From Plantactinospora endophytica (GTDB lineage: Bacteria > Actinomycetota > Actinomycetes > Mycobacteriales > Micromonosporaceae): 44,578 nucleotides of DNA. The stretch is taken from positions 1 to 44,578 of the forward strand of contig NZ_BONW01000040.1 of NCBI RefSeq assembly GCF_016862915.1, in the 5' to 3' direction. Numbering within the stretch: position 1 is the first letter of the stretch; every line of letters starts with the position of its first letter. Both the position numbers and the translations under genes were made by a program. Below, piece by piece: positions 15,136 to 44,578 of this stretch. Below the pieces are notes generated by a model. It did not search any database and had not been told where the DNA came from. It saw only the letters and a list, made by a program, of their open reading frames with translations.

Positions 15136-17358
15136 CTACTCGGAGTCGACCGTCACCTTGTTCGACTTGGTGCCCTGGTCCTCGACGGTCGGCTTGCCGC
15201 TGCGCTTGCCGGAGTCGCCGGTGCTGGTGATCCGGGTCGGCATCGGCTCCCGGCCGCCGGTGCCGGGCACCGCCGCCACGGTCGGCTCGCCCTCGATGCC
15301 GCCGCCGTCGGCGCCGGCGGTCACCGGCTCGGTCACCCGGGACGTCCCGGACGTCTCGCCGGACGCCCCGGTCTGCTCGGCGGCGACCTGCTCGGCGGCG
15401 GCCTCGACGATCTGCTGCATGTCGGCCTCGGCCTGTGCCAACTGCTGCTCCGCCTGCTGGGCCGACTGTTCCGTGCCGGTCAACCGGTCCTGCTCGCCGG
15501 CGAGCTGCGTCTGCGCGGCGGCGAGCTGCCGCTGGATCCGGTCGGACTCCTGCCGGGAGGCCACCGTCTCCTGCCGGATGTCGGCGAGCGACTGCTGCGC
15601 CTCGGCGATCTCCTGCATCACCTCGGCCAACTGCTGCCGGCCGGCCGCCGCCTCCTGCTGCGTACTGGCCAGGTGCTGCTGGGTGGTGGCCAGGTGCTGC
15701 TGCGCCGTCGCCATGTACTCCTCGAACTGGCGGCGGGACGTGCTGGCCTGCTCCTCCGCCTGCCGGTGCAGCTCGGCGAGCCGCTCCTCGGCCTCCCGCC
15801 GGATCTCGGCGGCCTTCTCCTCGGCCTCGCCGCGCACCCGGGCGGCGTACTCGTCGGCCTCCTGGCGGACCCGGTCGGCGCCGCCCTCGATCTCCGCCCG
15901 ACGGGTCTCGTACGACTCCTCCAGCTCGGTCCGCCGCGCGTCGAGCTGCTGCTCCAGCTCGGTCTGCCGAGCCTCGAACTGCTGCTCCAGCTCGGCCTTG
16001 CGCTGGTTGAACTCGCGGTCGGCACCGGCCCGGTAGGCGGCCAGCTCCTCCTCCAGGGCGGACCGGCCGGCGCTCAGCTCCTCCTCGGCGGCGGTCCGCT
16101 GGGCGGCGATCTCCTGCTCGGCGGCGGTGGTACGCCGGTTGATCTCCTGCTCGACACCGGCCCGCCAGGCGCCCAGCTCCTGCTGCGTCTCCGCCCGCAC
16201 CTTCTGGGCGTACTCCTCGACGTCGGCACGGGACTTCCGGACGTACTCGGCGGTCTCCTCGTTGATCCGGGCCGCCTCCTGCTGCGCCTTGGCGTGCGCC
16301 GCCTGCCCGGCCTCGCGGAGCTGGGTGGCCTCGTGCTTCGCCTTCGCGTGCAGCCCCTGGCCGGCCTCGCGCAGCCGGGTCGCCTCCTGCTTGGCAATCT
16401 CGATCATGCGGTCGGCTTCCTGGGCCGCCGCGTCGGTGAGCCGCTGCGCCTCCTGCTGGGCCTTGACGTGTGCCGCCTGCCCCGCTTCGCGCAGCCGGGT
16501 CGCTTCCTGCTGGGCGGCGTCCCGGAGCCGGTTGGCCTCGTGCTGGGCCGCGTGCCGCAACCGCGCGGACTCCTGGCGGGCGCGCTCGACGACCTGCTGG
16601 CTCTCCCGTTCGGTCCGCTCGGTCAGCTCCTGGGCCTGGGCGGCGGTCAGCTCGGTGAGCCGGTTCGCCTCCTGCTCCGCGGTGTCCCGGAGCTGCTTGG
16701 CCTCCTGCACCGCCTTGGCGTGCGCCGCCTGGCTGGCCTCGCGCAGCCGGTTCGCCTCCTCGGCGGCCCGGTTGCGCAGCTCGGAACCCTCCTGCTTGGC
16801 CTTCTCGAACGCGGCCTGGGCGGCTTCGCGGAGTCGGGTGGCCTCCTCGGCGGCGGCGGTGACGGCGGCGTCCGCCTCGGCTCGGCGGGCCGTGTTGAGC
16901 TTCTCCTCCTCCGCCCGGCGGGCGGCGAGGGCGAGTTCGAAGTCGCGCAGCGCGTCGGCGGCCTGCTGGCGGGCATCCTCCAGCACCTGCTCCGCCTCGG
17001 CCCGCCGAGCCTCGATCTCCTGGAGGGTGTCCCGGTGGATGATCTCGGCCTGTTCCTCGGCGAGCGTCAGGATCTGTTCGACCACCGGACCGAGGTGCCG
17101 GAACGACGCCCGGTCCACCACGCCGATCTGCCGTCGTACCGCCGTCAGGTCGCGTTGCAGCACCTCGACCTGGCCGGCCAGATTGTGGATCTGGCTGTAC
17201 GCGTGCTCACGCTGGGCCGCCAGGGTGGCGATATCGTTCTCGGCGCGAGCGACGTACCGATCCACCTGCCCCTTGTCGTAGCCCCGAAAGGCCGGCTCGA
17301 AGCTCGGCTCCGTAGCCACATCCCCGTTCAGGGCAAACAGTTCCTCGCCGTGCGACAT
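15136..17358 (-). CDS. Scy-like polar coiled-coil cytoskeletal protein
   Basis: A 740-residue, almost wholly helical coiled-coil protein. Near the N-terminus is a DivIVA-like segment (FEPAFRGYDKGQVDRYV), then a short hinge and LGPVVEQILTLAEEQAEII, both shared with the adjacent FilP-like protein. The long rod is built of repeats such as EANRLREA, QAAHAKAQQEA and EATRLREAGQ. Tyr/Glu-rich stretches follow and the C-terminus is low-complexity acidic/Lys. In Streptomyces, Scy organises the tip-growth polarisome with DivIVA and FilP. Scy there is much longer (about 1300 residues), so this is a shorter version or a relative. ATG at 17358 fits the conserved start better than one 39 codons upstream. 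It follows filP after a hairpin. Confidence 0.78.
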   Translation of the reverse strand: MSHGEELFALNGDVATEPSFEPAFRGYDKGQVDRYVARAENDIATLAAQREHAYSQIHNLAGQVEVLQRDLTAVRRQIGVVDRASFRHLGPVVEQILTLAEEQAEIIHRDTLQEIEARRAEAEQVLEDARQQAADALRDFELALAARRAEEEKLNTARRAEADAAVTAAAEEATRLREAAQAAFEKAKQEGSELRNRAAEEANRLREASQAAHAKAVQEAKQLRDTAEQEANRLTELTAAQAQELTERTERESQQVVERARQESARLRHAAQHEANRLRDAAQQEATRLREAGQAAHVKAQQEAQRLTDAAAQEADRMIEIAKQEATRLREAGQGLHAKAKHEATQLREAGQAAHAKAQQEAARINEETAEYVRKSRADVEEYAQKVRAETQQELGAWRAGVEQEINRRTTAAEQEIAAQRTAAEEELSAGRSALEEELAAYRAGADREFNQRKAELEQQFEARQTELEQQLDARRTELEESYETRRAEIEGGADRVRQEADEYAARVRGEAEEKAAEIRREAEERLAELHRQAEEQASTSRRQFEEYMATAQQHLATTQQHLASTQQEAAAGRQQLAEVMQEIAEAQQSLADIRQETVASRQESDRIQRQLAAAQTQLAGEQDRLTGTEQSAQQAEQQLAQAEADMQQIVEAAAEQVAAEQTGASGETSGTSRVTEPVTAGADGGGIEGEPTVAAVPGTGGREPMPTRITSTGDSGKRSGKPTVEDQGTKSNKVTVDSE

Positions 17359-17476
17359 ACTCCCATCCTCACACGGGTCGCCCAGTTCTGCGGCGATACC
17401 CGGCGGGGCTGATGGGACGAAGCTCACCGGTCGGGACATTATCCGACCTGTCGGGCCGTACGCCGGGCAGCACACA

Positions 17477-17505
17477 GGGCCGTACCGGAAACTCCGGTAC
17501 GGCCC
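17477..17505 (-). terminator. Hairpin between the FilP-like and Scy-like genes
   Basis: A perfect 13-bp stem, GGGCCGTACCGGA at 17477-17489 and its complement at 17493-17505, with a 3-nt loop. The stem is extended further out by GCAGCAC (17467-17473) against GTGCTGC (17511-17517). Being downstream of the FilP-like stop, it probably ends or attenuates that transcript, so the Scy-like gene would need read-through or its own promoter. Confidence 0.7.
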
Positions 17506-17553
17506 CTGCCGTGCTGCTGCCCCGCAGCCCGACCCGCGACCGTCGTCGTCGGA

Positions 17554-18828
17554 TCAGCTCGCCGTGTCGGCGGGAACCCGCTCCTCCGCCTCGTCCTTGT
17601 CGGCGGCGGCGGCCGGCTTGGCCGGCTCGGCCTTGGCGGCCGGCGCCCCACCCACACCCGGCACGATGCCGGCCAGGCCGGAGAGCATCTGGCCGAGCTG
17701 CGAGGTGACGGCGTCCTTCTGCCGGGTGAGGTCCTCGACCTCGCGGCGGGCCGCCTGCGTGGTCAGGTCGGCCTCGGTGCGCGCCTCGGTGAGCAGGCGG
17801 TGCGCCTCGGCACGAGCCTCGTTGAGGGTCTTGTCGGCCAGTGCCTTCGCCTTGTCGATGGTCTCGGCGGCGTTCCGCTCCGACTCCACCCGGCGGGCCT
17901 CGGCGCGCTGCTCGATCTCCTTGGCGCGGTCCTGCGCCGCCCGGGCCCGCTGCTCGGCCTCGGCGACCAGCTTCTGGGTCTGCGCCACCTGCGCGGCGTG
18001 CCGCTCCGACTCCTCGCGCTCGGCCTTCTCCCGGCGCTCGGCGAGCTGGAGCTCCAGCGCCTGGAGGTCCTTGTCCCGCTTGTCCCGGGCGTCGGTGAGC
18101 AGCTTGGTCGCCTCGGCGCGCTTCTCCTCGGCCTCCCGGGCCGCCTTGGCCCGCTGCTGGGTGATCTCCCGCTCGGCGGTGGCCCGGAGGGTGGCGACCT
18201 CCCGCTCGACCGTGGACTTCAGCTCGGCGACCTCGTGCGCGGTGACCGTACGGAGCTGCTTGGTCTCCCGCTCGGCGTCGGCGCGCAGGGTGTCCGCCTC
18301 CCGGCGGGCCTGCACCCGGACCTCGGCGGCCTCCCGCTCGGCGGCGGTGCGTACGCTGCCCGCCTCCCGCTCGGCGGAGGCCTTCATCGCGGCGGCCTCG
18401 GCACGCGCCTTGTCGGTGATCTCCCGCGCCTCCAGCCGGGCGGCCGAGAGGATGCCCTCCGACTCGCGCTTGGCCTCGCCACGGTGGTCGTTCGCCTGCT
18501 CCTCGGCGAGGCGCAGGATCTGCTCGACCCGGGTGCCCAGACCGGAGAGGGTGGGGCGGTTGTTCTCTTCGAGTTGCTTGTTGGTGTCGGTGAGCTTCTG
18601 CTCCACCGACGCGAGCCGCTGCTCGGCCTGGCGGAGCCGACGCTGGGCGTCGTTCATCCGCTGCTCGGCCTCGGCGCGGGCCTGCTCGGACTGGTTCAGA
18701 GCGGCGTTCAACCGGCCCAGATGACCGTTGACCTGCTCACGGTCGTAGCCGCGCAGGGCGACCGTGAAGTCTGGCTGTGAGTTCGCGTTGTCGAAGAACG
18801 CGAGAGGGGAGGACTGCTGCTGGGGCAT
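17554..18828 (-). CDS. filP: FilP-like intermediate-filament-type coiled-coil protein
   Basis: A 424-residue coiled-coil protein. Landmarks shared with Streptomyces FilP (recalled) are an N-terminal DivIVA-like RGYDREQVNGHLGRL (about residues 26-40), then LSGLGTRVEQILRLAEEQA (about 95-113). A long Ala/Glu/Arg rod follows, and near the end REVEDLTRQKDAVTSQLGQMLSGL. A disordered Ala/Lys/Glu tail closes it. Streptomyces FilP is about 310 residues, so this form has a longer rod. It should form cytoskeletal filaments that stiffen the cell and interact with DivIVA and Scy at the growing pole. It precedes the Scy-like gene on the same strand. A TTGACC-N17-TAGTAC promoter lies about 50 bp upstream. 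Confidence 0.8.
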   Translation of the reverse strand: MPQQQSSPLAFFDNANSQPDFTVALRGYDREQVNGHLGRLNAALNQSEQARAEAEQRMNDAQRRLRQAEQRLASVEQKLTDTNKQLEENNRPTLSGLGTRVEQILRLAEEQANDHRGEAKRESEGILSAARLEAREITDKARAEAAAMKASAEREAGSVRTAAEREAAEVRVQARREADTLRADAERETKQLRTVTAHEVAELKSTVEREVATLRATAEREITQQRAKAAREAEEKRAEATKLLTDARDKRDKDLQALELQLAERREKAEREESERHAAQVAQTQKLVAEAEQRARAAQDRAKEIEQRAEARRVESERNAAETIDKAKALADKTLNEARAEAHRLLTEARTEADLTTQAARREVEDLTRQKDAVTSQLGQMLSGLAGIVPGVGGAPAAKAEPAKPAAAADKDEAEERVPADTAS

Positions 18829-33500: not shown

Positions 33501-35465
33501 TCAGGCGAGGGCGCGGAGGAACTTCTCGGCGATCGGCACGGCGGTGGCCGTACTCGATCCGCCCTTCTCGACGAAGACGGCGAACGCGACGTCCCCCTGC
33601 CAGCCCACGAACCAGGCGTGGGTGTTCGCCGGGTTGTCGTCGTACTCGGCGGTGCCGGTCTTGCCGTACACCGGGTCGCCCGGCACGTCCGCCAGCGCGC
33701 TGCCGGTCCCCTTGGTGACCACCTCGCGCATCATGGTGCGGAGCGGCTCGACCGAGCCGGCCTTCAACTGCGGTCCGGCCGGCGCCGCCGCACCCGGTGC
33801 CGGCTCCAGCACCAGCTTCGGCTGCTGCCACTGGCCACGGGCGACCCCGGCGGTCGCCGCCGCCATCGCCAGCGGACTGACCACGGTGGTGCCCTGGCCG
33901 AAGGCGGCGGCGGCCCGCTCGGCGGCCGAGCCGCCCGCCGACACCTTGCCGGTGAACGCATCGACACCGAGCTTCCACTCCGCCTCCAGGCCGAGGCTCC
34001 GGCCGGCGTTGGCCAGCCCGTCCGGCCCCAGCCTCGGCGCCAGCGCGGCGAACGCCGTGTTGCAGGACTTCGCGAAGTCGGTCCGGAACGGCACGTTGCC
34101 GAGGACGAAGTTGTCGGAGTTCTTGAACGACCGCCCGTCGACCGTGAACGTTCCCGGGCAGGCGACCGGCCCGTCCAGGCTGACCGCCCCGAGGTCGAGC
34201 AGGCCGAGCGTGCTGACCATCTTGAAGGTCGAGCCTGGCGGCACCTGGGCGGTGAAGGCGAGGTTCTCGGCGCTGGCACCGTTTGCCGCAGCCAGCACCG
34301 CGCCGTCGCCGACGCGTACCGCGACCAGGGCGGCGCGCTGCTTGGAGCCGCGTACCGCGTCGTCGGCCGCGTTCTGCGTCGTTACGTCGATAGTGGTCTT
34401 CAGGGTGCTGCCGGGCTGCGGCTCGCGCCGGAACACCTCGGTACCGGTCGGCGTGACCGTGCCGTCCGGGCGCTTGCTGGCGACGATCACCGCGATCCCG
34501 GCGCCGCCCCGGAGTTGCTTGTCGTAGCGGCCCTGTATCCCGCCGTGGCCGACCAGGTCGCCCTCCTCGAACAGCCCCGGGTTGGCCGCCATGTCGTCGG
34601 CCTGCACCGGGTCGACCGAACCGAGCAGAGCCCGGGCGAAGTCGCGGGTCGGCGCAAGGTCCCGCTGCTCGTCGCGGAACTTCGTCCCCGGCAGGTCATA
34701 GATGCGCGGTTTGATCTGGAGGTACGCCTCGCGGCGCAGGCTCACCACGTCGACGAAGGCGTCCGGTTTGGCCTCCCGCATCCGGGTCGGCAGGTCGGTC
34801 AGGTCCACCGGCGGGGTGATCGGCGGCCGGATCGCCTTGAACGCCGTGTCCAGTTGCTTCACCAGCCCGGGTACGTCGGTCACCTCGCTCGGCTGCACGC
34901 CGACGAGTACCACCGGTCGGGGGGCCACGATCGGCTTGCCGGCTCCGTCGGTCACCGCCGCCCGCTTGGCGGTGAGCCGGCGCAGTGCCAGCTCGTCACC
35001 GCTGGTCAGACGCGGCTCGACGACCTTCGGCTCCCAGATGACCTGCCACTCGTCGTCCTCGGCACGCTTGAGGTGGATCTCCGACGGGTACGTCCAGTGC
35101 GTGTCGCCGGGCAACGTCCAGTCCACCCGTACCGTGGCGGTCGCGGTGTCTTCTGTGATCTTCGCCTCGCCCTCCTGGCGGAGTGCCGGCGGCGTCTTGG
35201 CCAGCTCGCCGGAGAGCTGCTTGAGTTCCTCCGCCACCTCCTCGGCCGGGACCCGCTCGCCGGCCGGGTTGCGGAAGCCGACCTTGTTGAGATCGCCGCC
35301 GCGCCATCCCGTGAGGAACGCGTCGACCGCACGGTCCGGACCGTCGGATTCCGAACAGCCGGCCAGGGCTCCGGCGGCCAGCACCACGCCGGTCAGCGCG
35401 ACGGCTGTCCCGCGTCGGGCGGTTTGCCGGGTACGGGAGCGGTGGGAGGATTTCGGAAAGCGCAT
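33501..35465 (-). CDS. Lipoprotein penicillin-binding protein with MecA-like N-terminal domain
   Basis: A 654-residue class B penicillin-binding protein. Residues 1-37 are a lipoprotein signal ending L-A-G-C37. An NTF2-like MecA N-terminal domain follows (about 45-150). A dimerisation region comes next, then a transpeptidase domain with S412xxK415 (PPGSTFK), S467CN and K602TG (YGKTGTAEY). It cross-links peptidoglycan outside the membrane and is anchored by lipid rather than a transmembrane helix. PBP2a of Staphylococcus has the same layout, but similar proteins are common in actinomycetes, so no resistance role is claimed. The start faces a large divergent spacer. Confidence 0.92.
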   Translation of the reverse strand: MRFPKSSHRSRTRQTARRGTAVALTGVVLAAGALAGCSESDGPDRAVDAFLTGWRGGDLNKVGFRNPAGERVPAEEVAEELKQLSGELAKTPPALRQEGEAKITEDTATATVRVDWTLPGDTHWTYPSEIHLKRAEDDEWQVIWEPKVVEPRLTSGDELALRRLTAKRAAVTDGAGKPIVAPRPVVLVGVQPSEVTDVPGLVKQLDTAFKAIRPPITPPVDLTDLPTRMREAKPDAFVDVVSLRREAYLQIKPRIYDLPGTKFRDEQRDLAPTRDFARALLGSVDPVQADDMAANPGLFEEGDLVGHGGIQGRYDKQLRGGAGIAVIVASKRPDGTVTPTGTEVFRREPQPGSTLKTTIDVTTQNAADDAVRGSKQRAALVAVRVGDGAVLAAANGASAENLAFTAQVPPGSTFKMVSTLGLLDLGAVSLDGPVACPGTFTVDGRSFKNSDNFVLGNVPFRTDFAKSCNTAFAALAPRLGPDGLANAGRSLGLEAEWKLGVDAFTGKVSAGGSAAERAAAAFGQGTTVVSPLAMAAATAGVARGQWQQPKLVLEPAPGAAAPAGPQLKAGSVEPLRTMMREVVTKGTGSALADVPGDPVYGKTGTAEYDDNPANTHAWFVGWQGDVAFAVFVEKGGSSTATAVPIAEKFLRALA

Positions 35466-35858: not shown

Positions 35859-38800
35859 ATGGACCGGCGTCCGGCGATCACACCGGAACCCGTTCTCCAG
35901 CCGGCGGATGCCGGCCGAGACGACAGCTACGACGCGGCGATCGACGACGACGGGGCGGGCTCTCGACTCGCCTCCGGCGTGACCGGCGTGCCGGGAGCCA
36001 GCATCGACACCCTCTACGACCTCGGACTGCCTCCGGAGGCCCTCGCCGACGACGTCGAGGACGCCGACCTGGACGAACCGGTGCCGAACGCCGAGCGGCT
36101 GGTGGCCCAGGCGGTCGCGCTGGCCGGCGACGACCACGACGCGGCGACCCTGGTCGACCGGTTCTGGCGGTTCGCCCCGGACGAGGAGCTGATCGGGTTC
36201 ACCCCGACGGAGATGCTCGCCGCCGCCCAGGCCCACCGGGATCTGGCCCAGCAGCGCGTACCGGGCGAGCTGAAGCTGCGGATCCACGAGCCGGCCGCGG
36301 ACCAGCAGCACACCGTGATCGAGATCGTCACGGACGATATGCCCTTTTTGGTGGATTCCATCACGGCGCTGCTGACCGGCCACCACCTCGACGTACACAT
36401 GCTGGTGCATCCACTGGTGGTGGTGCGTCGGGAGCCGCTCGGCAGGCTGACCGAGGTCGCCGCCGACGTCGAACCAGACGACGCGATCGACGGTGACCTC
36501 GTCGAGAGTTGGATGCGGATAGAGATCGATCCGGTACGCGGCGCCGCCGACCGGGACCGATTGCGCGCCGAGTTGCAGCGGGTGCTCACCGACGTACGCG
36601 AGGCGGTGGAGGACTGGCCGAAGATGCGGCAGCGGGCGCTGTCCCTCGCCGACGAACTGGCCGCCGCGCGGACCTCGGACAACCGCCCGCCAGTGCCCGA
36701 AAAGGACATCACCGACTCGGTGGAGCTGCTCCGCTGGCTGGCGCACGAGCACTTCACCTTCCTCGGCTACCGCGAATACCGGCTGACCCAGACCGCGCAG
36801 GGGTCGGCGCTGGAGGCGGTGCTCGGCACCGGGCTGGGCATCCTGCGGCAGGACTCCACCACGCCCCGGGCACTCTCCTCGATGACGCCCGAGGCGCACC
36901 AGAAGGTGACCGAGAAGCGGCTGCTCATCATCACCAAGGCCAACTCCCGGGCCACCGTGCACCGGTCGGCCTACCTGGACTACATCGGCTTCAAAATCTT
37001 CGACGAGCGCGGCGAGGTGGTCGGCGAGCGGCGCTTCCTGGGCCTGCTCGCCACGGCGGCGTACCGGACCAGCGTCCGGGAGCTGCCGGTGGTCCGGCGG
37101 AAGGTCGCCGAGGTGTTGGACCGGTCCGGGCTCAGCCCGCGCAGCCACTCCGGCAAGGACCTGTTGCAGATCCTGGAGACCTATCCCCGGGACGAACTGT
37201 TCCAGATCAAGACCGACGACCTGTACCACGCCGTCGTCGGGGTACTCCGGATGGCGGGTCGCCGCCAGCTCCGGGTCTTCCTGCGCCGCGACGGGTACGG
37301 CCGGTTCATCTCCTGCCTGATCTACCTGCCCCGGGACCGGTTCACCACGCAGAACCGGCTGCGGATGCAGGAGATCCTGCTCCGCGAGCTGAACGGGATC
37401 GGCGTCGACTACACCACCCGGGTCACCGAGTCGATGCTGGCCCGGGTGCACTTCATCGTCCGGACCGACCCGGCCAGCCCGCCCGGCGAGGTGGACGCGG
37501 ACCTGCTCGCCGAGGAACTCGCCGACGCGACCCGGCTCTGGGACGACGACTACCGGCTGGTGCTGGAGCGCAAGCTCGGCGACGAGCAGGCCAAACACCT
37601 CTTCACCCGGTACGCCGACGCGTTTCCGGAGGGCTACAAGGACGGGCACACCCCGTACGAGGCGATGAAGGACCTGGCCAAGCTCGAACTGCTGGAGGAG
37701 CCCGGCCAGCTAGAGATGCACATGTTCCGCAAGCAGCAGGCCGCCCGCCCCGGTGGCCCCGCCCCGGCCACCGCCGTCGAGGACGTCCGGTTCAAGGTCT
37801 ACCGGTACGGCGAGCCGATGGTGCTCTCCGCCGTCCTGCCGGTGCTGCACTCGCTCGGCGTACGGGTGGTCGACGAGCACCCGTACGAGGTGGAGCGGAT
37901 CGACGGCCGGATCTACCTCTACGACTTCGGTCTCGAACTGCCCGACGGCGCCCGGGACCTGGCCGAGGTACGCCCGCACGTGGAGAACGCCTTCTCCGCC
38001 ACCTGGCGCGGCGAGGCCGAGGTCGACGGCTTCAACGAACTCGTGCTGCGCGGCGGCCTCACCTGGCGGCAGGTGGTGGTGTTGCGGGCGTACGCGAAGT
38101 ACCTGCGGCAGGCCGGCACGGTCTTCTCGCAGGACTACATGGAGTCCACCTTCATCGCGTACCCGCAGCTCGCCGCCTCGCTGGTGGAACTCTTCGAGAC
38201 CCGGTTCTCCCCGACGCTGGGCTACTCCGCCGAGGAACGCAACCTGCGGAGCAAGGAACTCGTCACCTCGATCAACCAGCAGCTCGACGACGTGAGCAGC
38301 CTGGACCAGGACCGGATCCTGCGCTCCTACCTGACGCTGATCCAGGCGACCCTGCGGACCAGCTTCTACCAGCGGCGCACCGACGGGCGGCCGAAGCCGT
38401 ACGTGGCGTTCAAGCTCGACCCGCAGGCGGTGCCGGACCTGCCGGCGCCCCGGCCGAAGTACGAGATCTTCGTCTACTCGCCGCGCTTCGAGGGCGTACA
38501 CCTGCGGTTCGGGCCGGTGGCCCGAGGCGGTATCCGCTGGTCGGACCGGCGGGAGGACTTCCGCACCGAGGTGCTCGGCCTGGTCAAGGCGCAGATGGTG
38601 AAGAACGCCGTGATCGTGCCGGTGGGTGCCAAGGGCGGCTTCGTGCTCAAGCAGAAGCCGGGCGACCGGGACGAGGCGGTCGCCTGCTACCAGGGCTTCA
38701 TCTCGGCCCTACTGGACGTGACCGACAACCTGGTCGGCGGGCAGATCGTGCCGCCGGAGGACGTGGTTCGGCACGACGCCGACGACCCCTATCTGGTGGT

Positions 38801-40910
38801 GGCGGCGGACAAGGGCACGGCCAGCTTCTCCGACATCGCCAACGAGATCTCGGTCCGGAACGGCTTCTGGCTGGCCGACGCGTTCGCCTCCGGCGGTTCG
38901 GCCGGCTACGACCACAAGAAGATGGGGATCACCGCCCGGGGCGCCTGGGAGTCGGTGAAGCGGCACTTCCGGGACATGGGGATCGACACCCAGAGCCAGG
39001 ACTTCACGGTGGCCGGGGTCGGCGACATGTCCGGCGACGTCTTCGGGAACGGGATGCTGCTCTCCGAGCACATCAGGCTGGTGGCCGCCTTCGACCATCG
39101 GCACATCGTGCTGGACCCGGACCCCGACCCGGCATCGTCCTACGCGGAGCGTCGGCGGCTCTTCGACCAGCCGCGCTCGTCGTGGGCCGACTACAACGCC
39201 GAGCTGCTCTCCGAAGGCGGCGGGATCTATCCGCGTACCGCGAAGTCGATCCCGATCAGCCCGCAGGTCCGCGCGGTGCTCGACCTCGGCGCCGACGTCG
39301 AGTCGATGTCGCCGCAGGAGCTGATGAAGGCGATCCTCTCCGCCCCGGTCGACCTGTTCTGGAACGGCGGCATCGGCACCTACGTCAAGGCGTCCTCGGA
39401 GTCGAACGCCGAGGTCGGCGACAAGTCCAACGACGCCATCCGGGTGGACGGCAAGGACCTGCGGGCCCGGGTGGTCGGCGAGGGCGGCAACCTGGGCTTC
39501 ACCCAGGTCGGCCGGATCGAGTACGCCCAGGCGGGCGGCCGGATCTTCACCGACTTCATCGACAACGCGGCCGGGGTGGACACCTCGGACCACGAGGTCA
39601 ACATCAAGATCCTGCTCGGTGCGGCGGTGGCCGACGGCGAGCTGAGCGTGCCGGACCGGGACGCGCTGCTGGCCGAGATGACCGACGAGGTCGCCCAGTT
39701 GGTGCTCCGGGACAACTACGACCAGGCCCGGGCGATCGGCAACGCACTGGCCCAGGCGGCGTCGCTGCTGCCGGTGCACCGGCGGATGATCTCCGACTTC
39801 GAGCGGGCCGGCCACCTCAACCGGGAGCTGGAGGCGCTGCCGCCGGACGAGGAGCTGGCCACCCGCACCGACACCGGGCTGACCGCGCCGGAGTTCGCGG
39901 TGCTGCTCGCGTACGTCAAGATCGTGCTGGAGCGGGAGATCCTGGCCGACGGGCTGCCCGACGAGGAGTGGACCTCGGAGGTGCTGACCGGCTACTTCCC
40001 GACCCCGCTGCGCGAGCGGTACGCCGACCGGATGCCGGAGCACCGGCTGCACCGGGACATCGTGACGACCGTACTGGTCAACGAGGCGGTGAACCGGGGC
40101 GGCATCTCGTTCATCTACCGGGTGGTGGAGGAGAGCGGCGCGACTCCGGCGGACGTGATCCGGGCGTACGTGGTGGTCCGCGAGGTCTTCGGGCTCCGGG
40201 AGATCTGGGACGACGTCGAGGCGCTGGACAACCGGGTACCGACCGAGGTGCAGACCGGGGTCTACCTGGACACCCGGCGGCTGCTCGACCGGGCCGTACG
40301 CTGGCTGGTGACGAACCGTCGTTCGCCGATCGACGTACCGGCCGAGATCGCCCGACTGCGCGACGGGATCTCCCGGCTCCTGCCCGAGCTGGGCAACCTG
40401 TTCTACGGTGGCGAACGCGAGGCGCTGGAGGCGCACGTCGACCTGTGCGAACGGCGCGGGCTGTCCCGGGAGTTGGCCGAGCGGTCCACCCGACTGATGT
40501 ACAGCTTCGGGCTGCTCGACGTGGTCGAGACGGCGACCGCGACCGGCCGGGACGTCGGCGAGGTGGCCTCGGTCTACTTCGTACTCTCCGACCGGTTCCG
40601 GGTCGACTCGCTGCTGTCGAAGATCTCGTTGCTGCCCCGGGAGGACCGCTGGCAGACGCTGGCCCGGATGGCGCTGCGCTACGACCTCTACGCCGCACTG
40701 GCCGCGCTCACCGCCGAGGTGCTCGGCGGTACCTCCGCCGACCTGCCAGCGGACGAGCGGGTGCAGGAGTGGGAGCGGTCCAACTCGATCTCGATCGGGC
40801 GTACCCGCAAGGCGATGGGGGAGTTCGACGAGTCCCGGGCCGACCTGGCCGCGCTCTCCGTACTGCTGCGGCAGATCCGTACCCTGGTGCGGACCTCGGC
40901 GGCCGGCTGA
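35859..40910 (+). CDS. gdh: Large NAD-specific glutamate dehydrogenase
   Basis: A 1683-residue member of the 180-kDa NAD-glutamate dehydrogenase family, about the usual length (1600-1650) plus a 70-residue Asp-rich leader. It oxidises glutamate to 2-oxoglutarate and ammonia. The first half holds the ACT-like regulatory region (VIEIVTDDMPFLVDSITALL near residue 165). The catalytic domain begins near residue 870 (RFGPVARGGIRWSDRREDFRTEVLGL), followed by VPVGAKGGFVLK with the glutamate-binding Lys 925. Dinucleotide-binding and helical domains continue to about residue 1600. GAGGGGAG lies upstream of the ATG at 35859. The gene stands alone and ends at a hairpin shared with the sortase cassette. 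Confidence 0.95.
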   Translation: MDRRPAITPEPVLQPADAGRDDSYDAAIDDDGAGSRLASGVTGVPGASIDTLYDLGLPPEALADDVEDADLDEPVPNAERLVAQAVALAGDDHDAATLVDRFWRFAPDEELIGFTPTEMLAAAQAHRDLAQQRVPGELKLRIHEPAADQQHTVIEIVTDDMPFLVDSITALLTGHHLDVHMLVHPLVVVRREPLGRLTEVAADVEPDDAIDGDLVESWMRIEIDPVRGAADRDRLRAELQRVLTDVREAVEDWPKMRQRALSLADELAAARTSDNRPPVPEKDITDSVELLRWLAHEHFTFLGYREYRLTQTAQGSALEAVLGTGLGILRQDSTTPRALSSMTPEAHQKVTEKRLLIITKANSRATVHRSAYLDYIGFKIFDERGEVVGERRFLGLLATAAYRTSVRELPVVRRKVAEVLDRSGLSPRSHSGKDLLQILETYPRDELFQIKTDDLYHAVVGVLRMAGRRQLRVFLRRDGYGRFISCLIYLPRDRFTTQNRLRMQEILLRELNGIGVDYTTRVTESMLARVHFIVRTDPASPPGEVDADLLAEELADATRLWDDDYRLVLERKLGDEQAKHLFTRYADAFPEGYKDGHTPYEAMKDLAKLELLEEPGQLEMHMFRKQQAARPGGPAPATAVEDVRFKVYRYGEPMVLSAVLPVLHSLGVRVVDEHPYEVERIDGRIYLYDFGLELPDGARDLAEVRPHVENAFSATWRGEAEVDGFNELVLRGGLTWRQVVVLRAYAKYLRQAGTVFSQDYMESTFIAYPQLAASLVELFETRFSPTLGYSAEERNLRSKELVTSINQQLDDVSSLDQDRILRSYLTLIQATLRTSFYQRRTDGRPKPYVAFKLDPQAVPDLPAPRPKYEIFVYSPRFEGVHLRFGPVARGGIRWSDRREDFRTEVLGLVKAQMVKNAVIVPVGAKGGFVLKQKPGDRDEAVACYQGFISALLDVTDNLVGGQIVPPEDVVRHDADDPYLVVAADKGTASFSDIANEISVRNGFWLADAFASGGSAGYDHKKMGITARGAWESVKRHFRDMGIDTQSQDFTVAGVGDMSGDVFGNGMLLSEHIRLVAAFDHRHIVLDPDPDPASSYAERRRLFDQPRSSWADYNAELLSEGGGIYPRTAKSIPISPQVRAVLDLGADVESMSPQELMKAILSAPVDLFWNGGIGTYVKASSESNAEVGDKSNDAIRVDGKDLRARVVGEGGNLGFTQVGRIEYAQAGGRIFTDFIDNAAGVDTSDHEVNIKILLGAAVADGELSVPDRDALLAEMTDEVAQLVLRDNYDQARAIGNALAQAASLLPVHRRMISDFERAGHLNRELEALPPDEELATRTDTGLTAPEFAVLLAYVKIVLEREILADGLPDEEWTSEVLTGYFPTPLRERYADRMPEHRLHRDIVTTVLVNEAVNRGGISFIYRVVEESGATPADVIRAYVVVREVFGLREIWDDVEALDNRVPTEVQTGVYLDTRRLLDRAVRWLVTNRRSPIDVPAEIARLRDGISRLLPELGNLFYGGEREALEAHVDLCERRGLSRELAERSTRLMYSFGLLDVVETATATGRDVGEVASVYFVLSDRFRVDSLLSKISLLPREDRWQTLARMALRYDLYAALAALTAEVLGGTSADLPADERVQEWERSNSISIGRTRKAMGEFDESRADLAALSVLLRQIRTLVRTSAAG

Positions 40911-41000: not shown

Positions 41001-41744
41001 TCAGGGGATCCGGGTGGCGGACACGATGACGTTGTCGCGGTAGCTGCGTTTCTTGCGGTCGAAGGTGCCGCCGCAGGTCACCACCTGGAGCCGGGCGGCG
41101 TCCGTGGCGCCGTAGACCAGCTCGGACGGGAACGCGGCCTTCGGGTACGACTTCACCGCGTCCACCGCGAACCGGACCACGCCGCCGTCCTTCCGGGTGA
41201 CCTCGATCCGCTCGCCGCGTTTCAGCGAACCGAGCCGGAAGAAGACCGCCGGGCCGGTCGCGGCCGAGTCGACGTGGCCGACCACCACCGCGTTGCCGAA
41301 CTCGCCGGGGCTGGCCCCCAGCTTGTACCAGCCGGCGAGCTGCGCCTGTTTCAACGGGGGCACCTGGACGGTGCCGTCGTCGTTCACCCCGAGCGAGATG
41401 ATCTTCGCGTTCACCCTGATCTTCGGAATGCTGATCCGGACCGGCTCGGACCGGGCCAGTTCCACCGGTCCGGACGGCTGGCCGGCCCCCGGTCCGCCGC
41501 TGCCCGCCGCACCGGGGCCGGGCGTCGGCTCCCGGGCCCACGCCGGCCGTGGCAGCGCCTCGGCGCTTCCGGCCTCGGTGTCGGCGGGCTGCGGCGGCTG
41601 CGTGGGTGCCGGGTTCAGACCGGCGGTGAGCAGCGCGGTTCCACCGATGGCGAGCACGGCGACCAGGGTCACGCCGGCGGCACGCCACGGTTGCCCGTGT
41701 CGGCCGCCGGCGCGCCTGGTCGGCACGTCAGGCGGGTGAGCCAT
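41001..41744 (-). CDS. Class F sortase 1
   Basis: A 247-residue membrane-anchored transpeptidase. Residues 20-44 are a signal anchor (AGVTLVAVLAIGGTALLTAGL), then a Pro/Gly-rich linker to about residue 95. The sortase barrel has catalytic His157 (VVVGHVDS), Cys224 (VVTCGGTFDR) and a likely Arg236 (SYRDN). It should cleave a sorting signal in a secreted substrate and join it to the cell surface. It begins 17 bp inside the end of its own surface-protein gene. Close paralogue of sortase 2. Class F is inferred from the overall layout and the TCGG motif. It is the last gene of cassette 1. Confidence 0.9.
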   Translation of the reverse strand: MAHPPDVPTRRAGGRHGQPWRAAGVTLVAVLAIGGTALLTAGLNPAPTQPPQPADTEAGSAEALPRPAWAREPTPGPGAAGSGGPGAGQPSGPVELARSEPVRISIPKIRVNAKIISLGVNDDGTVQVPPLKQAQLAGWYKLGASPGEFGNAVVVGHVDSAATGPAVFFRLGSLKRGERIEVTRKDGGVVRFAVDAVKSYPKAAFPSELVYGATDAARLQVVTCGGTFDRKKRSYRDNVIVSATRIP

Positions 41745-42513
41745 CGGTACGGCGCCGACGGATCAGCAGGAAGCCACCGATCGCGGCGGCTCCCAGCAGA
41801 CCCGCACCGGCGGCGGTCCGGGTGGAGTCGGTGCTGGCGGCGCCACCGTCACCACCGGGTACGGAGCCCAGGGGCAGCACCACGATCCGGCCGGTGCTGT
41901 TGCACTCGCCCGACGCCTTGTACTGCCCGGGCCGGGTCTCCTTCGGCGCCTTGGCCCAGGCCCAGTACACGACCTTGGCGCCGTACGCGGCCCGGGCACC
42001 CTGGCCGCCCTCGACCTGCTCGTCGGCACCTTCCTCGGTGGCGGCACCCTCCTCGGTGTCCGCACCTTCCCCGGTGTCGGCGCCATCCGGCTGCGTGTCC
42101 CCGGGTGCCGCCGACTGCTCGCCGCCCGCCGGTGGTGCCTGTCGCTCGCCGTTCGGGGGCACCGGTTGTCCGCTGGCCGGCGGAGGCGACGGCTGCGTGC
42201 CGCCGTCGGTCCGGTCGTCGTTTCCGGGTGGTGCCTCGGGAACCCGGACGTTGTCCTCGGCCACACGCTTGAGCGAGAGCTTGCCGATGATTTTCGACGA
42301 AACCCAGGGCCGCTCCACCGGGCGATCGCACTCAAGAATGATCTTAAACTTGTGGCCCGGCTTCACCCCCTTCGGCACGGTGTAGATGCGGCCCTTGTTC
42401 TCCTGCTTCGGTGGGGCGTCGTCCGCAAGCGCGGTTCCGGGCGCACAGATCAGCAGGGACACGGCACCCAGACCGGCGGCGGCCATCACCTTCCCCAACA
42501 ACTTCCTACCCAT
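41728..42513 (-). CDS. Sortase-associated surface protein 1
   Basis: A 261-residue exported protein. Signal peptide 1-31 (LGAVSLLICAPGTALA). An N-terminal domain (about 38-92) is followed by a Pro-rich and acidic linker with GADTEEGA-like repeats (about 93-168), and a beta-domain (about 173-215) with YWAWAKAPKETRPGQY and GEC. The end carries LPLGSVPGGDGGAAS, a hydrophobic segment (about 231-252) and RRRRTD, a sorting-type signal. The canonical LPXTG is absent. The surface protein at 43497 shares the beta-domain and the whole tail. Overlap with sortase 1 by 17 bp implies coupled expression. Likely the substrate of that sortase. Confidence 0.8.
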   Translation of the reverse strand: MGRKLLGKVMAAAGLGAVSLLICAPGTALADDAPPKQENKGRIYTVPKGVKPGHKFKIILECDRPVERPWVSSKIIGKLSLKRVAEDNVRVPEAPPGNDDRTDGGTQPSPPPASGQPVPPNGERQAPPAGGEQSAAPGDTQPDGADTGEGADTEEGAATEEGADEQVEGGQGARAAYGAKVVYWAWAKAPKETRPGQYKASGECNSTGRIVVLPLGSVPGGDGGAASTDSTRTAAGAGLLGAAAIGGFLLIRRRRTDGSPA

Positions 42514-42700
42514 GAGATGTCGTCACTTCCTTCCCCGTTCGGTTGCTCGACGGCCCGCCGAGCCAGAGCCGACGCTAGCTAGTTTGTGAACTGATGTCGT
42601 GATTATGAGTATTTCTTCTGAAAGCTCGTCTTCGAGTGGTAGAGAGCCATTCACGTCAGGGATGTCCGGATCGGCAATGCCGTCGGCGCGCGGAACGACC
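42514..42700 (-). promoter_or_regulatory. Promoter region of sortase cassette 1
   Basis: About 190 bp, markedly AT-rich between 42580 and 42650, upstream of the leftward surface-protein 1 gene. On the minus strand a GGGGAAGGAAG run near 42520-42535 is the likely ribosome-binding site region. A CTAGCTAG palindrome and TTCACA lie in the centre. No single -35/-10 pair stood out. No gene is visible. Confidence 0.5.
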
Positions 42701-42728
42701 GGGGGACAGCGGCACGCCGCTGTCCCCC
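42701..42728 (-). terminator. Terminator between the two sortase cassettes
   Basis: A perfect 13-bp stem, GGGGGACAGCGGC at 42701-42713 and its complement at 42716-42728, with only two bases between the arms (effective loop four or more). It lies 35 bp after the sortase 2 stop, so each cassette is probably a separate transcription unit. No T-run, as typical here. Confidence 0.85.
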
Positions 42729-42763
42729 GAGGCCCGGACCTGCCGGGATGGTCGCCGTCGCGG

Positions 42764-43513
42764 TTACCCGACGAGTTTGGCGAAGGCGATGATGTTGTCC
42801 GGATAGGAGCCGGTCCGCTCGTCGAAGTCGCCCCCGCAGGTCACCAGGCGCAGCCCGGGAGCCTCCGACGGGCCGTAGACGAGTTCGGTGGGAAAGGCGC
42901 GCTTCGGGTACGACTTCACGCCGTCCACCGCGAAGGTGGCGAGGCTGCCGTCCCGCCGGATCACCTCGATGGTGTCCCCGGGCAGCAGGGCGCCGAGCCG
43001 GAAGAACACCGCCGGCCCGATCTCCTTCGAGTCGACGTGGCCGACGATCACCGAGTTGCCGGGCTCGCCCGGAGTCGGACCCAGTTGGTACCAGCCGGCC
43101 AGTTCCGCCTTGGCCAGCGGCGGTACCTGCACCATGCCGTCCGAGTTGAGTCCGAGCGGCATGATCGTCGCGTCCACGCCGATCCTGGAGATCATGATCT
43201 TGATCGGCTCCGACCTGGTCAGCACCCTCCCGGCCGGTACGGGCGTCGCGCTGGCGCCACCACTGGCGTCCGGCGTGGGCGACGGGGCGTCGAGGTCGGG
43301 GCGGGTCGCCGGATTGACCGCCGCCGGGCGGTCCGGCGCCGCACCGGCGCTCGGCTGCGGCGGTCGGAGCGGATCAGGGGAGTTGAGTGCGGCACCGATC
43401 AGACCGGCACCGACCAGGGCGAGCAGCGCGACGAGGCCGGCGCCGGCGACGCGCCACGGTCTCCCGTGACGGCCGCCGACACCGCTCGCCGTCGCGTCAG
43501 GCTGCTGACTCAT
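42764..43513 (-). CDS. Class F sortase 2
   Basis: A 249-residue paralogue of sortase 1 with the same order: signal anchor (about 22-42, AGAGLVALLALVGAGLIGAAL), Pro-rich linker, barrel. Catalytic His159 (VIVGHVDS) and Cys226 (LVTCGGDFDE) are kept. The position of sortase 1 Arg236 is Pro238 (SYPDN), from a CCG codon. If that Arg is the catalytic one, this enzyme may be impaired or use another Arg (R233 is close). ATG at 43513 is used; an in-frame start 37 codons upstream lies inside the surface-protein gene and would add residues of no recognisable kind. It overlaps surface protein 2 by 17 bp, exactly as in cassette 1. Confidence 0.88.
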   Translation of the reverse strand: MSQQPDATASGVGGRHGRPWRVAGAGLVALLALVGAGLIGAALNSPDPLRPPQPSAGAAPDRPAAVNPATRPDLDAPSPTPDASGGASATPVPAGRVLTRSEPIKIMISRIGVDATIMPLGLNSDGMVQVPPLAKAELAGWYQLGPTPGEPGNSVIVGHVDSKEIGPAVFFRLGALLPGDTIEVIRRDGSLATFAVDGVKSYPKRAFPTELVYGPSEAPGLRLVTCGGDFDERTGSYPDNIIAFAKLVG

Positions 43514-44578
43514 CGGTACGGCGCCGACGTAGCAGCACCAGTCCGCCGAGCCCGGCCAACCCGAGCATGCCCGTACCCGCCGCCGCCAGGCGGCCGCTGT
43601 CGTCGGAGGTCGCCCCGCCGTCACCGCCGTCGACCCAGCCCGTCGGCACGACGATCAGTTCACCCTCGCCGCAGGAGCCCTTGAGCTCGTACGTGCCCGG
43701 CTTGGCGTCCCACGGGATGGTGACGCTGGCCCAGTACTCGAAGCCGGCCTTCTTGCCGTCCCAGCCGTGTTGGCCTTCGTCGGCTTTCTTGTCGCCGTTC
43801 TCCCAGCCGCCCTTGCTCTCCTCGGCCTTCTCCCAGCCGCCCTTGGAGTCTTCGGCCTTCTTGCCGTCCCAGCCGTGCTTGGGGTCCTCGGCCTTCTTGC
43901 CGTCCCAGCCGCCCTTGGAGTCTTCGGCCTTCTTATCTTCCGTCCAGCCGGGCTTGCTCTCCTCGGCCTTCTTGTCGTCGGCCTTCTTCTCCTCGGGCTT
44001 CCCGCTGTCGTCCCAGCCGCCCTTGCTCTCCTCGGCCTTCTCCCAGCCGTGCTTGGAGTCTTCGGCCTTCTTGTCGTCCCAGCCGCCCTTGCTCTCCTCG
44101 GCCTTCTCCCAGCCGTGCTTGGGGTCCTCGGCCTTCTTGCCTTCCTCCCAGCCGTGCCCGCCGTCGGCCCGGGTCATCCCGCCGGTGCCGTTCGGCGCTG
44201 CCGGTGCCTGCTGCCCGGCCGGCGGCTGGTAGCCCTGCGGCTGGCCGCTGGCGGACGGCGCCGGCGACGGCGCCGGTACCGCGTCGGCCGACGGGCCGGG
44301 TGCCGCTGGGGCGCCCTCGGCGGCCGACGGTGCGGACCCGGTGCCGGACGCCCCGTTCTCCGCCGGGGCCGGCTCGTACTTCTTCTCCTTGTAGCGGCGG
44401 TACTCGAGGTAGTCCTGGTACTCCTTGTACCGCAGGAAGTCCTGGTACTCGTTCTCCTTCTTGTAGTCCCCGCCGCCGTTGTACTCCCCGCTGGCGTTCT
44501 CGTGGCCGCCGGAGTACTCGGGCTTCTCGGCGCGCTCGGCGCTCTCCTCGGCCTTCTTCCCCTCTTCGGCCTTCTTCC
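43497..44578 (-). CDS. Sortase-associated surface protein 2, 5' end outside the window
   Basis: The frame is open from the stop at 43497 to the window edge, at least 360 codons, so the start and signal peptide are missing. Visible in order: a Lys/Glu-rich start (KKAEEGKKAEESAERAEK), a Tyr-rich stretch with YKEYQDYLEYRRYKEKKY, a Pro/Ala/Gly linker, the Gly-Trp repeat array (43750-44155), a beta-domain (YWASVTIPWDAKPGTYELKG), then VPTGWVDGGDGGATS, a hydrophobic helix and RRRRTD. An internal ATG at 44177 is not the start, since coding continues upstream. Its beta-domain and tail match surface protein 1. The substrate role for sortase 2 is inferred. Confidence 0.82.
   Translation of the reverse strand, partial: KKAEEGKKAEESAERAEKPEYSGGHENASGEYNGGGDYKKENEYQDFLRYKEYQDYLEYRRYKEKKYEPAPAENGASGTGSAPSAAEGAPAAPGPSADAVPAPSPAPSASGQPQGYQPPAGQQAPAAPNGTGGMTRADGGHGWEEGKKAEDPKHGWEKAEESKGGWDDKKAEDSKHGWEKAEESKGGWDDSGKPEEKKADDKKAEESKPGWTEDKKAEDSKGGWDGKKAEDPKHGWDGKKAEDSKGGWEKAEESKGGWENGDKKADEGQHGWDGKKAGFEYWASVTIPWDAKPGTYELKGSCGEGELIVVPTGWVDGGDGGATSDDSGRLAAAGTGMLGLAGLGGLVLLRRRRTDESAA
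43750..44155 (-). repeat. Lys/Glu-rich Gly-Trp repeat array
   Basis: Eleven Gly-Trp pairs occur at 10-23 residue spacing, each followed by a charged run such as DDKKAEDSKH, EKAEESKG or DGKKAEDPKH. At DNA level the blocks are near-identical (CTTGGAGTCTTCGGCCTTCTT on the plus strand recurs), so the array grew by tandem duplication. It lies outside the membrane, between the Pro-rich linker and the beta-domain. It does not resemble Listeria GW domains, which are about 80 residues long. Confidence 0.9.

Follow-up and report, generated by a model that had tools for sequence, protein, structure and literature searches.

Two tandem class F sortase cassettes of Plantactinospora endophytica, each with a candidate substrate carrying a glycine-rich, non-LPXTG sorting signal

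The role of class F sortases is reported as unknown in the available parts of two publications (PMC13251363, PMC6998099), and earlier substrate screens, according to the same parts, relied on LPXTG-type pentapeptides or on the Pfam family PF00746. Here we describe two tandem cassettes of Plantactinospora endophytica, each consisting of a class F sortase gene and, directly upstream, a gene for a secreted protein. They lie on the minus strand at positions 41001-44578 of a 44,578-nucleotide (nt) stretch of DNA (contig NZ_BONW01000040.1), hereafter called the window. The enzymes are referred to as sortases A and B and the secreted proteins, by their predicted role, as substrates A and B. Among the closest known systems are SrtF of Propionibacterium (Cutibacterium) acnes, likewise called class F, and SrtF of Corynebacterium diphtheriae (PDB 5uus). 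The class E sortase SrtE1 of Streptomyces coelicolor differs in that it retains the catalytic Arg (Arg329) and reads LAXTG, as stated in the accessible portion of PMC5148588. In Actinoplanes missouriensis, the pairs srtF1/AMIS_11010 and srtF4/AMIS_36440 also place a class F sortase beside a secreted protein. AMIS_11010 and AMIS_36440, which we liken to the window proteins by description, have a C-terminal transmembrane region, a basic stretch and no known pentapeptide; two class F neighbors of this species were named as possible substrates in a 2026 mBio paper and set aside for want of a pentapeptide (PMC13251363, available sections). The pairing seen in the window is real, conserved and specific, and we consider it probable that each cassette encodes a dedicated class F sortase and its own single substrate, cleaved at a Gly-Gly (or Ala-Gly) bond.

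Both substrates end in a Gly-rich signal, PLGSVPGGDGGAAS in A and PTGWVDGGDGGATS in B, followed by a hydrophobic helix and RRRRTD. Substrate A is free of LPXTG and LAXTG, as is the portion of substrate B covered by the window, and neither protein has a Pfam match at E ≤ 1, PF00746 included. Because they lack both an LPXTG-type pentapeptide and a PF00746 match, both would have escaped the earlier screens. A search with substrate A alone recovers the C-terminus of substrate B (E 1.4e-17), and both cassettes with both substrates are present in 7/7 genomes of the genus searched, its own included; on this homology and synteny, chance or artefact was rejected as the cause of the likeness. In 22 aligned tails the P7 Pro, P5 Gly, P3 Val, P1' Gly and P4' Gly are invariant and P1, the scissile position, is Gly in at least 90%, and cleavage is predicted at the Gly-Gly bond between P-x-G-x-V-x-G and G-D-G-G. 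The nearest profile is NF058571 (GVDTG_CTERM), which describes a sorting domain with the same Gly-rich signal, helix and basic tail and is matched over nearly all of its 44 positions, but both window signals carry Gly in place of the Thr in the model's name and stay below its cut-off of 29 in hmmscan (27.2 bits for substrate A, 23.1 bits for substrate B). A six-frame search gave 31.5 bits for substrate A, above the cut-off, and 28 for substrate B, below it. The LPXTG anchor model TIGR01167 gave 12.4 bits for substrate B, below its cut-off of 15.9, and did not list substrate A; the GlyGly-CTERM profile was not listed for the window proteins in the profile search, in which the rhombosortase gene was not searched for. 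Judged by sequence, the window signal appears to be a divergent form of the already named NF058571 signal type in which Gly replaces Thr.

A tail model built from 22 tails was searched in 150 genomes of the order. All 15 strong-hit loci carry a class F sortase immediately downstream, and 11 of these loci contain no tail used in the model; of 15 weaker loci examined, three contained a match to a sortase, which was weak in one case. The two window tails are the only matches to the model at E ≤ 0.01 in their own genome, where 46 of 228 first-look candidates were scored. At E ≤ 1e-6, 24 of 296 genomes of the class contained a match (3 of the family, 20 of one Streptomyces-like genus and 1 other). 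Seven loci outside the family were examined; in six, a class F sortase accompanies a partner whose P1 residue is always Thr (PSGHVKTGVGG type), and the seventh gave no class F match. An earlier note, made from the letters of the window, had described the two cassettes, each with a class F sortase and a secreted protein, and the shared signal, helix and RRRRTD free of LPXTG and LAXTG, and had proposed beforehand the search of tails for class F neighbors. These descriptions are borne out, and the tail search agrees with them, in that the motif is not widespread without a sortase. That the motif follows class F sortases likewise supports the note's proposal that sortase and substrate form a dedicated pair and that the signal is not of the LPXTG type.

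The survey was then taken from the side of the enzymes. Among 101 genomes of the family, the NCBIfam class F model NF033748 matched 99 and exceeded its curated cut-off of 166 in 87. With sortase open reading frames (ORFs) of less than 200 bits and duplicates left out, the best-scoring among the matches listed gave a non-redundant set of 138 class F sortases, which represent 70 genomes and 29 genera. At 130 of these 138 loci the gene upstream on the same strand encodes a partner that has the signal, the helix and the basic tail. P1 is Thr in 79 partners, Gly in 34 and Ala in 17, five of the Gly assignments being ambiguous with Ala (P1 of genus g17, with 5 loci of the form PTGAPAGGGGS, was ambiguous between the two and counted as Gly). 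P3' is Gly in 127 and Ala in 3, P7 is Pro in 124, and P3 is Pro in 87, Val in 39 and Ala in 4; P1' is Gly in all 130, a residue that the scorer demands. At a score of at least 5.8, 123/132 partners passed, against 1/95 other ORFs with a transmembrane tail in the same loci and 92/2640 shuffles. Outside the family, 18/28 class F loci had a scored partner (16 with Thr, 2 with Ala and 0 with Gly at P1) and 10 had none. In the best 80 loci that a search of named records with the sortases of the window's group recovered (81 sortases, three of them from metagenome-assembled genomes lacking a genus), P1 was Gly in 51 (Micromonospora 41, Salinispora 5, Asanoa 3, Plantactinospora 2), Ala in 12, Thr in 8 and Ser in 1, and 9 sortases had no scored partner, four of them at locus ends and five with a tail or ORF below score. 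A partner with Ser at P1 (PGGGPPSGDGG) was seen in Catelliglobosispora (L332). The survey supplies a candidate substrate for most of the sampled class F sortases of the family, together with a consensus that can be assayed.

NF058571 matches 36/44 representative partner tails at E ≤ 0.01, PF00746 matches 1/44 and GlyGly-CTERM 1/44 (E 0.0015). The earlier note had gone on to suggest that the system has a recognition motif of its own and is a credible candidate for an undescribed anchoring route; a route that is wholly undescribed we regard as very unlikely. The literature leaves it some room: no open-access paper was found that treats GGDGG together with a sortase, which is weak evidence of absence, and none of the open-access papers found to contain GVDTG concerns sortases, as judged by title and the start of the abstract. 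A substrate test of these class F enzymes with this signal was likewise not found in the open-access literature. The word "undescribed" does not stand, however, as NF058571 already names and covers the signal type (in 36 of the 44 tails), partners are common beside class F sortases (130/138 in the family and 18/28 outside it) and the A. missouriensis neighbors had already been named as possible substrates (PMC13251363, available sections). The enzymes, moreover, are ordinary class F sortases whose active-site substitution, described next, is in print.

Sortases A and B score 202.3 and 198.1 bits against NF033748, and the model of sortase A has a sortase fold (best Foldseek E 3.3e-10). In the alignment, all 138 class F sortases retain the catalytic His and Cys, and Asn stands at the expected position of the catalytic Arg in 137/138. 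In sortase A this residue, Asn238, opens the last strand of the model and aligns with the Arg of the class E enzyme of the same genome, in a sequence register judged by eye. The change from Arg to Asn in actinobacterial class F sortases has already been reported (PMC6998099, citing Malik and Kim 2019, in the part available), and it was dropped as a new finding for that reason. In a computed model of the Clostridioides difficile class B sortase SrtB, Arg217 is hydrogen-bonded to the hydroxyl of the P1 Thr (PMC5118464, available part); since class F enzymes have Asn in place of the Arg making this contact, a P1 residue other than Thr may be tolerated. Gly172, Ser199, Asn151 and Phe169 mark the group of sortases to which those of the window belong. 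These four were considered as residues setting P1, and no specificity residue is claimed among them because lineage and P1 are confounded.

In both substrates the motif YWA...PGxY...GxC precedes the sorting signal, as the earlier note had described for a matching beta-domain; the note's separation of this domain from a "completely different" middle is not upheld by structure prediction. AlphaFold, run on substrate A with 20 homologues, predicts a single confident domain formed from about residues 40-84 and 181-214, with block means of 94-97 for residues 41-80, 95-97 for residues 181-210 and 36-53 between residues 91 and 180. Two Cys residues, one in each half-domain (Cys62 and Cys204), are invariant in the 20 rows of the alignment, and the VIA-align rows cover residues 36-219 of the model, crossing the insert. 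At the level of the model, the substrate domain is shown to be split: it looks like one immunoglobulin-like (Ig-like) domain, divided by an insert, and the different middle of the substrates is a length-variable, low-complexity insert within that one domain. A comparable split of the substrate B domain is inferred from the alignment of B-type homologues. Structure comparison of the model found no close solved relative of the substrate A domain, and the model shows no confident helix at the C-terminal helix of substrate A. Substrates of Asanoa (genus g19; L107, L125, L131, L160, L185) have apparently dropped the Ig-like domain and keep little beyond a signal peptide, the two Cys, a VDGG signal and the tail. 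At L113:1289-2236 (genus g24) the insert is a long His/Lys/Asp repeat of FHHHDKKWDDKKHFEHHDKK units, which is suggestive of metal binding, although this is a guess. Polymerization of the substrate into a pilus-like fiber by the class F sortase, instead of attachment of single molecules to the wall, receives the lowest probability that we assign to any explanation, as the single substrate encoded in each cassette has a low-complexity insert, the cassettes include neither a second nor a basal subunit, and structures of classes A, D, E and F score about alike against the sortase A model.

P1 is clearly tied to sortase lineage in the sequences surveyed. When P1 labels were placed on the sortase tree, 9 changes were required against about 45 in shuffles, and no shuffle was as low with either of two tree methods. 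FastTree recovers a fork of 37 rows that holds the window sortases, with P1 Gly in 29, Ala in 8 and Thr in 0 (support 82). A single clade for the Gly/Ala type was nevertheless not secured, since this fork was not recovered in IQ-TREE, and a single origin of the type is not clear. Our confidence in dedicated sortase-substrate pairs does not rest on a single origin. What is less expected in the system is that the window's group has lost the scissile-position Thr.

The pairing, the gene order, the gene overlap, the conserved signal and the agreement of signal type with sortase lineage are established by sequence and comparison, while export, cleavage, the exact bond and covalent wall attachment are extrapolated from the sortase family. 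By this analogy, the C-terminal helix and RRRR tail would keep the exported substrate in the membrane, the product of the adjacent downstream sortase gene would cut it at the predicted Gly-Gly bond, and the Ig-like domain with its long insert would then be joined to the cell wall. The sortase may read P7-P3 and the Gly-rich P1'-P4' side instead of a P1 Thr. We also offer, tentatively and with rather less confidence than the pairing itself, the hypothesis that this class F group gave up the P1 Thr, that its acyl-enzyme is formed on Gly or Ala and that it recognizes the substrate mainly through P7-P3 and the downstream Gly residues, with the class-wide loss of Arg permitting the change; P1 in class F would then be degenerate (Thr, Ala, Gly, Ser), with one neighbor for each paralogue. 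If Gly at P1 is truly cut, sortase specificity extends beyond the Thr rule, and proteins could be ligated at Gly-Gly bonds with this enzyme.

Several observations weigh against dedicated pairs or soften their support. The assayed class F enzyme, P. acnes SrtF, uses LPQTGE and not the window signal (PMC7451113, available part). In the family, 8/138 class F sortases lack a scored partner (two at contig ends, L109 and L128, and two with a tail below score, L150 and L164), and in other families just 18/28 loci have one. The motif scorer was written after the tails had been seen, so that the motif logo is partly circular, and 3.5% of shuffles still pass it. Near-copies inflate the P1 shuffle test; IQ-TREE lacks the 37-row fork, its nearest split comprising 33 of those rows and no others with a support of 47, and four Ala rows fall outside that split. 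Agreement between signal and sortase lineage fits recognition and is no proof alone, because linked genes are co-inherited. Finally, deletion of all four class F sortases of A. missouriensis caused no phenotypic change (PMC13251363, available sections). This last result, like the absence of the P1 Thr, would suit a tail that is merely a membrane anchor, with the proteins staying in the membrane and the adjacent sortases degenerate or acting elsewhere. We think this unlikely, since a plain anchor gives no reason to expect that P-x-G-x-V-x-[G/A]-G-x-G-G would be conserved across genera outside the helix, a class F sortase adjoins every one of the strong-hit loci (15/15), and the catalytic His and Cys are retained throughout (138/138). 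It is less likely still that a class E sortase sorts the substrates with the class F enzymes as accessories. The genome does encode one class E sortase (L008, 239.8 bits, above a cut-off of 160), and the class E enzyme was the only one with a phenotype in A. missouriensis (PMC13251363, available sections); class E, however, reads LAXTG (PMC5148588, accessible portion), which is absent from the window tails, and the signal type follows the class F lineages. Dedicated pairing of each class F sortase with its neighbor thus remains the reading that we favor.

The features of the two cassettes are collected in Table 1. The window is an entire contig (C40 of our numbering; G000:C40) of a 9.68-Mb genome in 90 contigs, and at its end the four cassette genes follow one another on the minus strand as substrate B, sortase B, substrate A, sortase A. 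Substrate B is cut because the window is the whole of this contig; its start, with the signal peptide and first half-domain, is at the beginning of contig C41. The assembly break falls inside the substrate B repeats (window position 44578 and the start of G000:C41), leaving two gene ends on C40 and C41.

Table 1. Positions of the cassette features in the window (lengths in amino acids, aa, nucleotides, nt, or base pairs, bp)
Feature	Position	Strand	Evidence or remark
Sortase A, class F, 247 aa (His157, Cys224, Asn238)	41001..41744	-	NF033748 202.3 bits, alignment, fold match
Substrate A, 261 aa: signal peptide (by eye), split Ig-like domain and insert, sorting signal, helix, RRRR tail	41728..42513	-	
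Substrate A, Ig-like domain, first half (about residues 40-84, Cys62)	42262..42396	-	AlphaFold, 20-row alignment
Substrate A, insert, low-confidence, length-variable (about residues 88-178)	41980..42252	-	AlphaFold, alignment gaps
Substrate A, Ig-like domain, second half (about residues 181-214, Cys204)	41872..41973	-	AlphaFold, alignment
Sorting signal A, PLGSVPGGDGGAAS (residues 214-227), predicted scissile bond Gly220-Gly221	41833..41874	-	Sequence, 22 aligned tails
Hydrophobic helix A, C-terminal (about residues 233-251), then RRRR	41761..41817	-	Sequence
Overlap of 17 nt, substrate A stop/sortase A start; GAT of Asp257 gives ATG	41728..41744	-	
Sortase B, class F, about 250 aa from ATG at 43513	42764..43513	-	NF033748 198.1 bits
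Substrate B, C-terminal 359 aa	43497..44576	-	N-terminus cut by contig end, continues at start of contig C41 (L057)
Substrate B, tandem repeats, charged, Trp-containing (period 66 bp, 5 copies), part of insert	43801..44139	-	
Substrate B, Ig-like domain, second half by homology	43644..43742	-	First half in L057
Sorting signal B, PTGWVDGGDGGATS	43605..43646	-	
Hydrophobic helix B, C-terminal, then RRRR	43530..43589	-	Sequence
Overlap of 17 nt, substrate B stop/sortase B start	43497..43513	-	

In both cassettes the D codon (GAT) of RRRRTD supplies the ATG of the sortase gene within the 17-nt overlap, and the most likely start of sortase B is 43513, which lies 17 nt within the substrate B gene, rather than 43624. 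An ATG at -17 occurs in 25/34 loci with Gly at P1, 2/17 with Ala and 0/79 with Thr. In L179 and L158, where H or N replaces D, AT is retained at the end of this codon and is followed by G. RRRRTD, listed in the earlier note as part of the shared tail, is indeed a shared feature, but its D is no evidence on anchoring because the residue overlaps the sortase start codon; with the ATG tracking loci that have Gly at P1, the D was rejected as a component of the anchor.

A gene for an NAD-glutamate dehydrogenase (35859-40910; Bac_GDH_CD, 876.8 bits) neighbors the cassettes. Such a gene stands beside the cassette in 19 of 28 loci examined, a count that includes two same-contig pairs (L096/L258 and L107/L292); the nine loci without an adjoining dehydrogenase gene are three 3.4-kb loci of genus g11, five of Asanoa and one of genus g24.

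The genome has seven matches to the sortase domain, five of them above the class F cut-off (two on C40 and one each on C41, C47 and C24). Each of the three class F sortases outside the window follows a secreted partner, and the partner signals are GPATGGGG, GPATGFGG and, in a DUF4397 protein, two copies of GVDTGAGG; the one genome therefore holds three Thr-type and two Gly-type class F cassettes. The DUF4397 protein (L009:2578-4155, G000:C24) carries its two GVDTGAGG copies before the helix and is encoded directly upstream of the class F sortase. A further sortase-domain protein (L012:5314-6351, G000:C28) matches PF04203 with 49.9 bits and the class E model with 79.9 bits, below the cut-off of 160; it keeps a His, has TADG at the expected TC, and seems to lack the catalytic Cys. 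Immediately upstream of its gene are two secreted proteins with transmembrane tails, one with LALTG before the helix.

Elsewhere in the window, positions 33501-35465 encode a penicillin-binding protein with transpeptidase, PBP_dimer and MecA_N-type domains, and positions 15136-17475 a protein of 779 aa whose matches to DivIVA and apolipoprotein are weak. The strongest AT skew of the window (-0.346, at 16001-18000) overlaps the gene of the latter.

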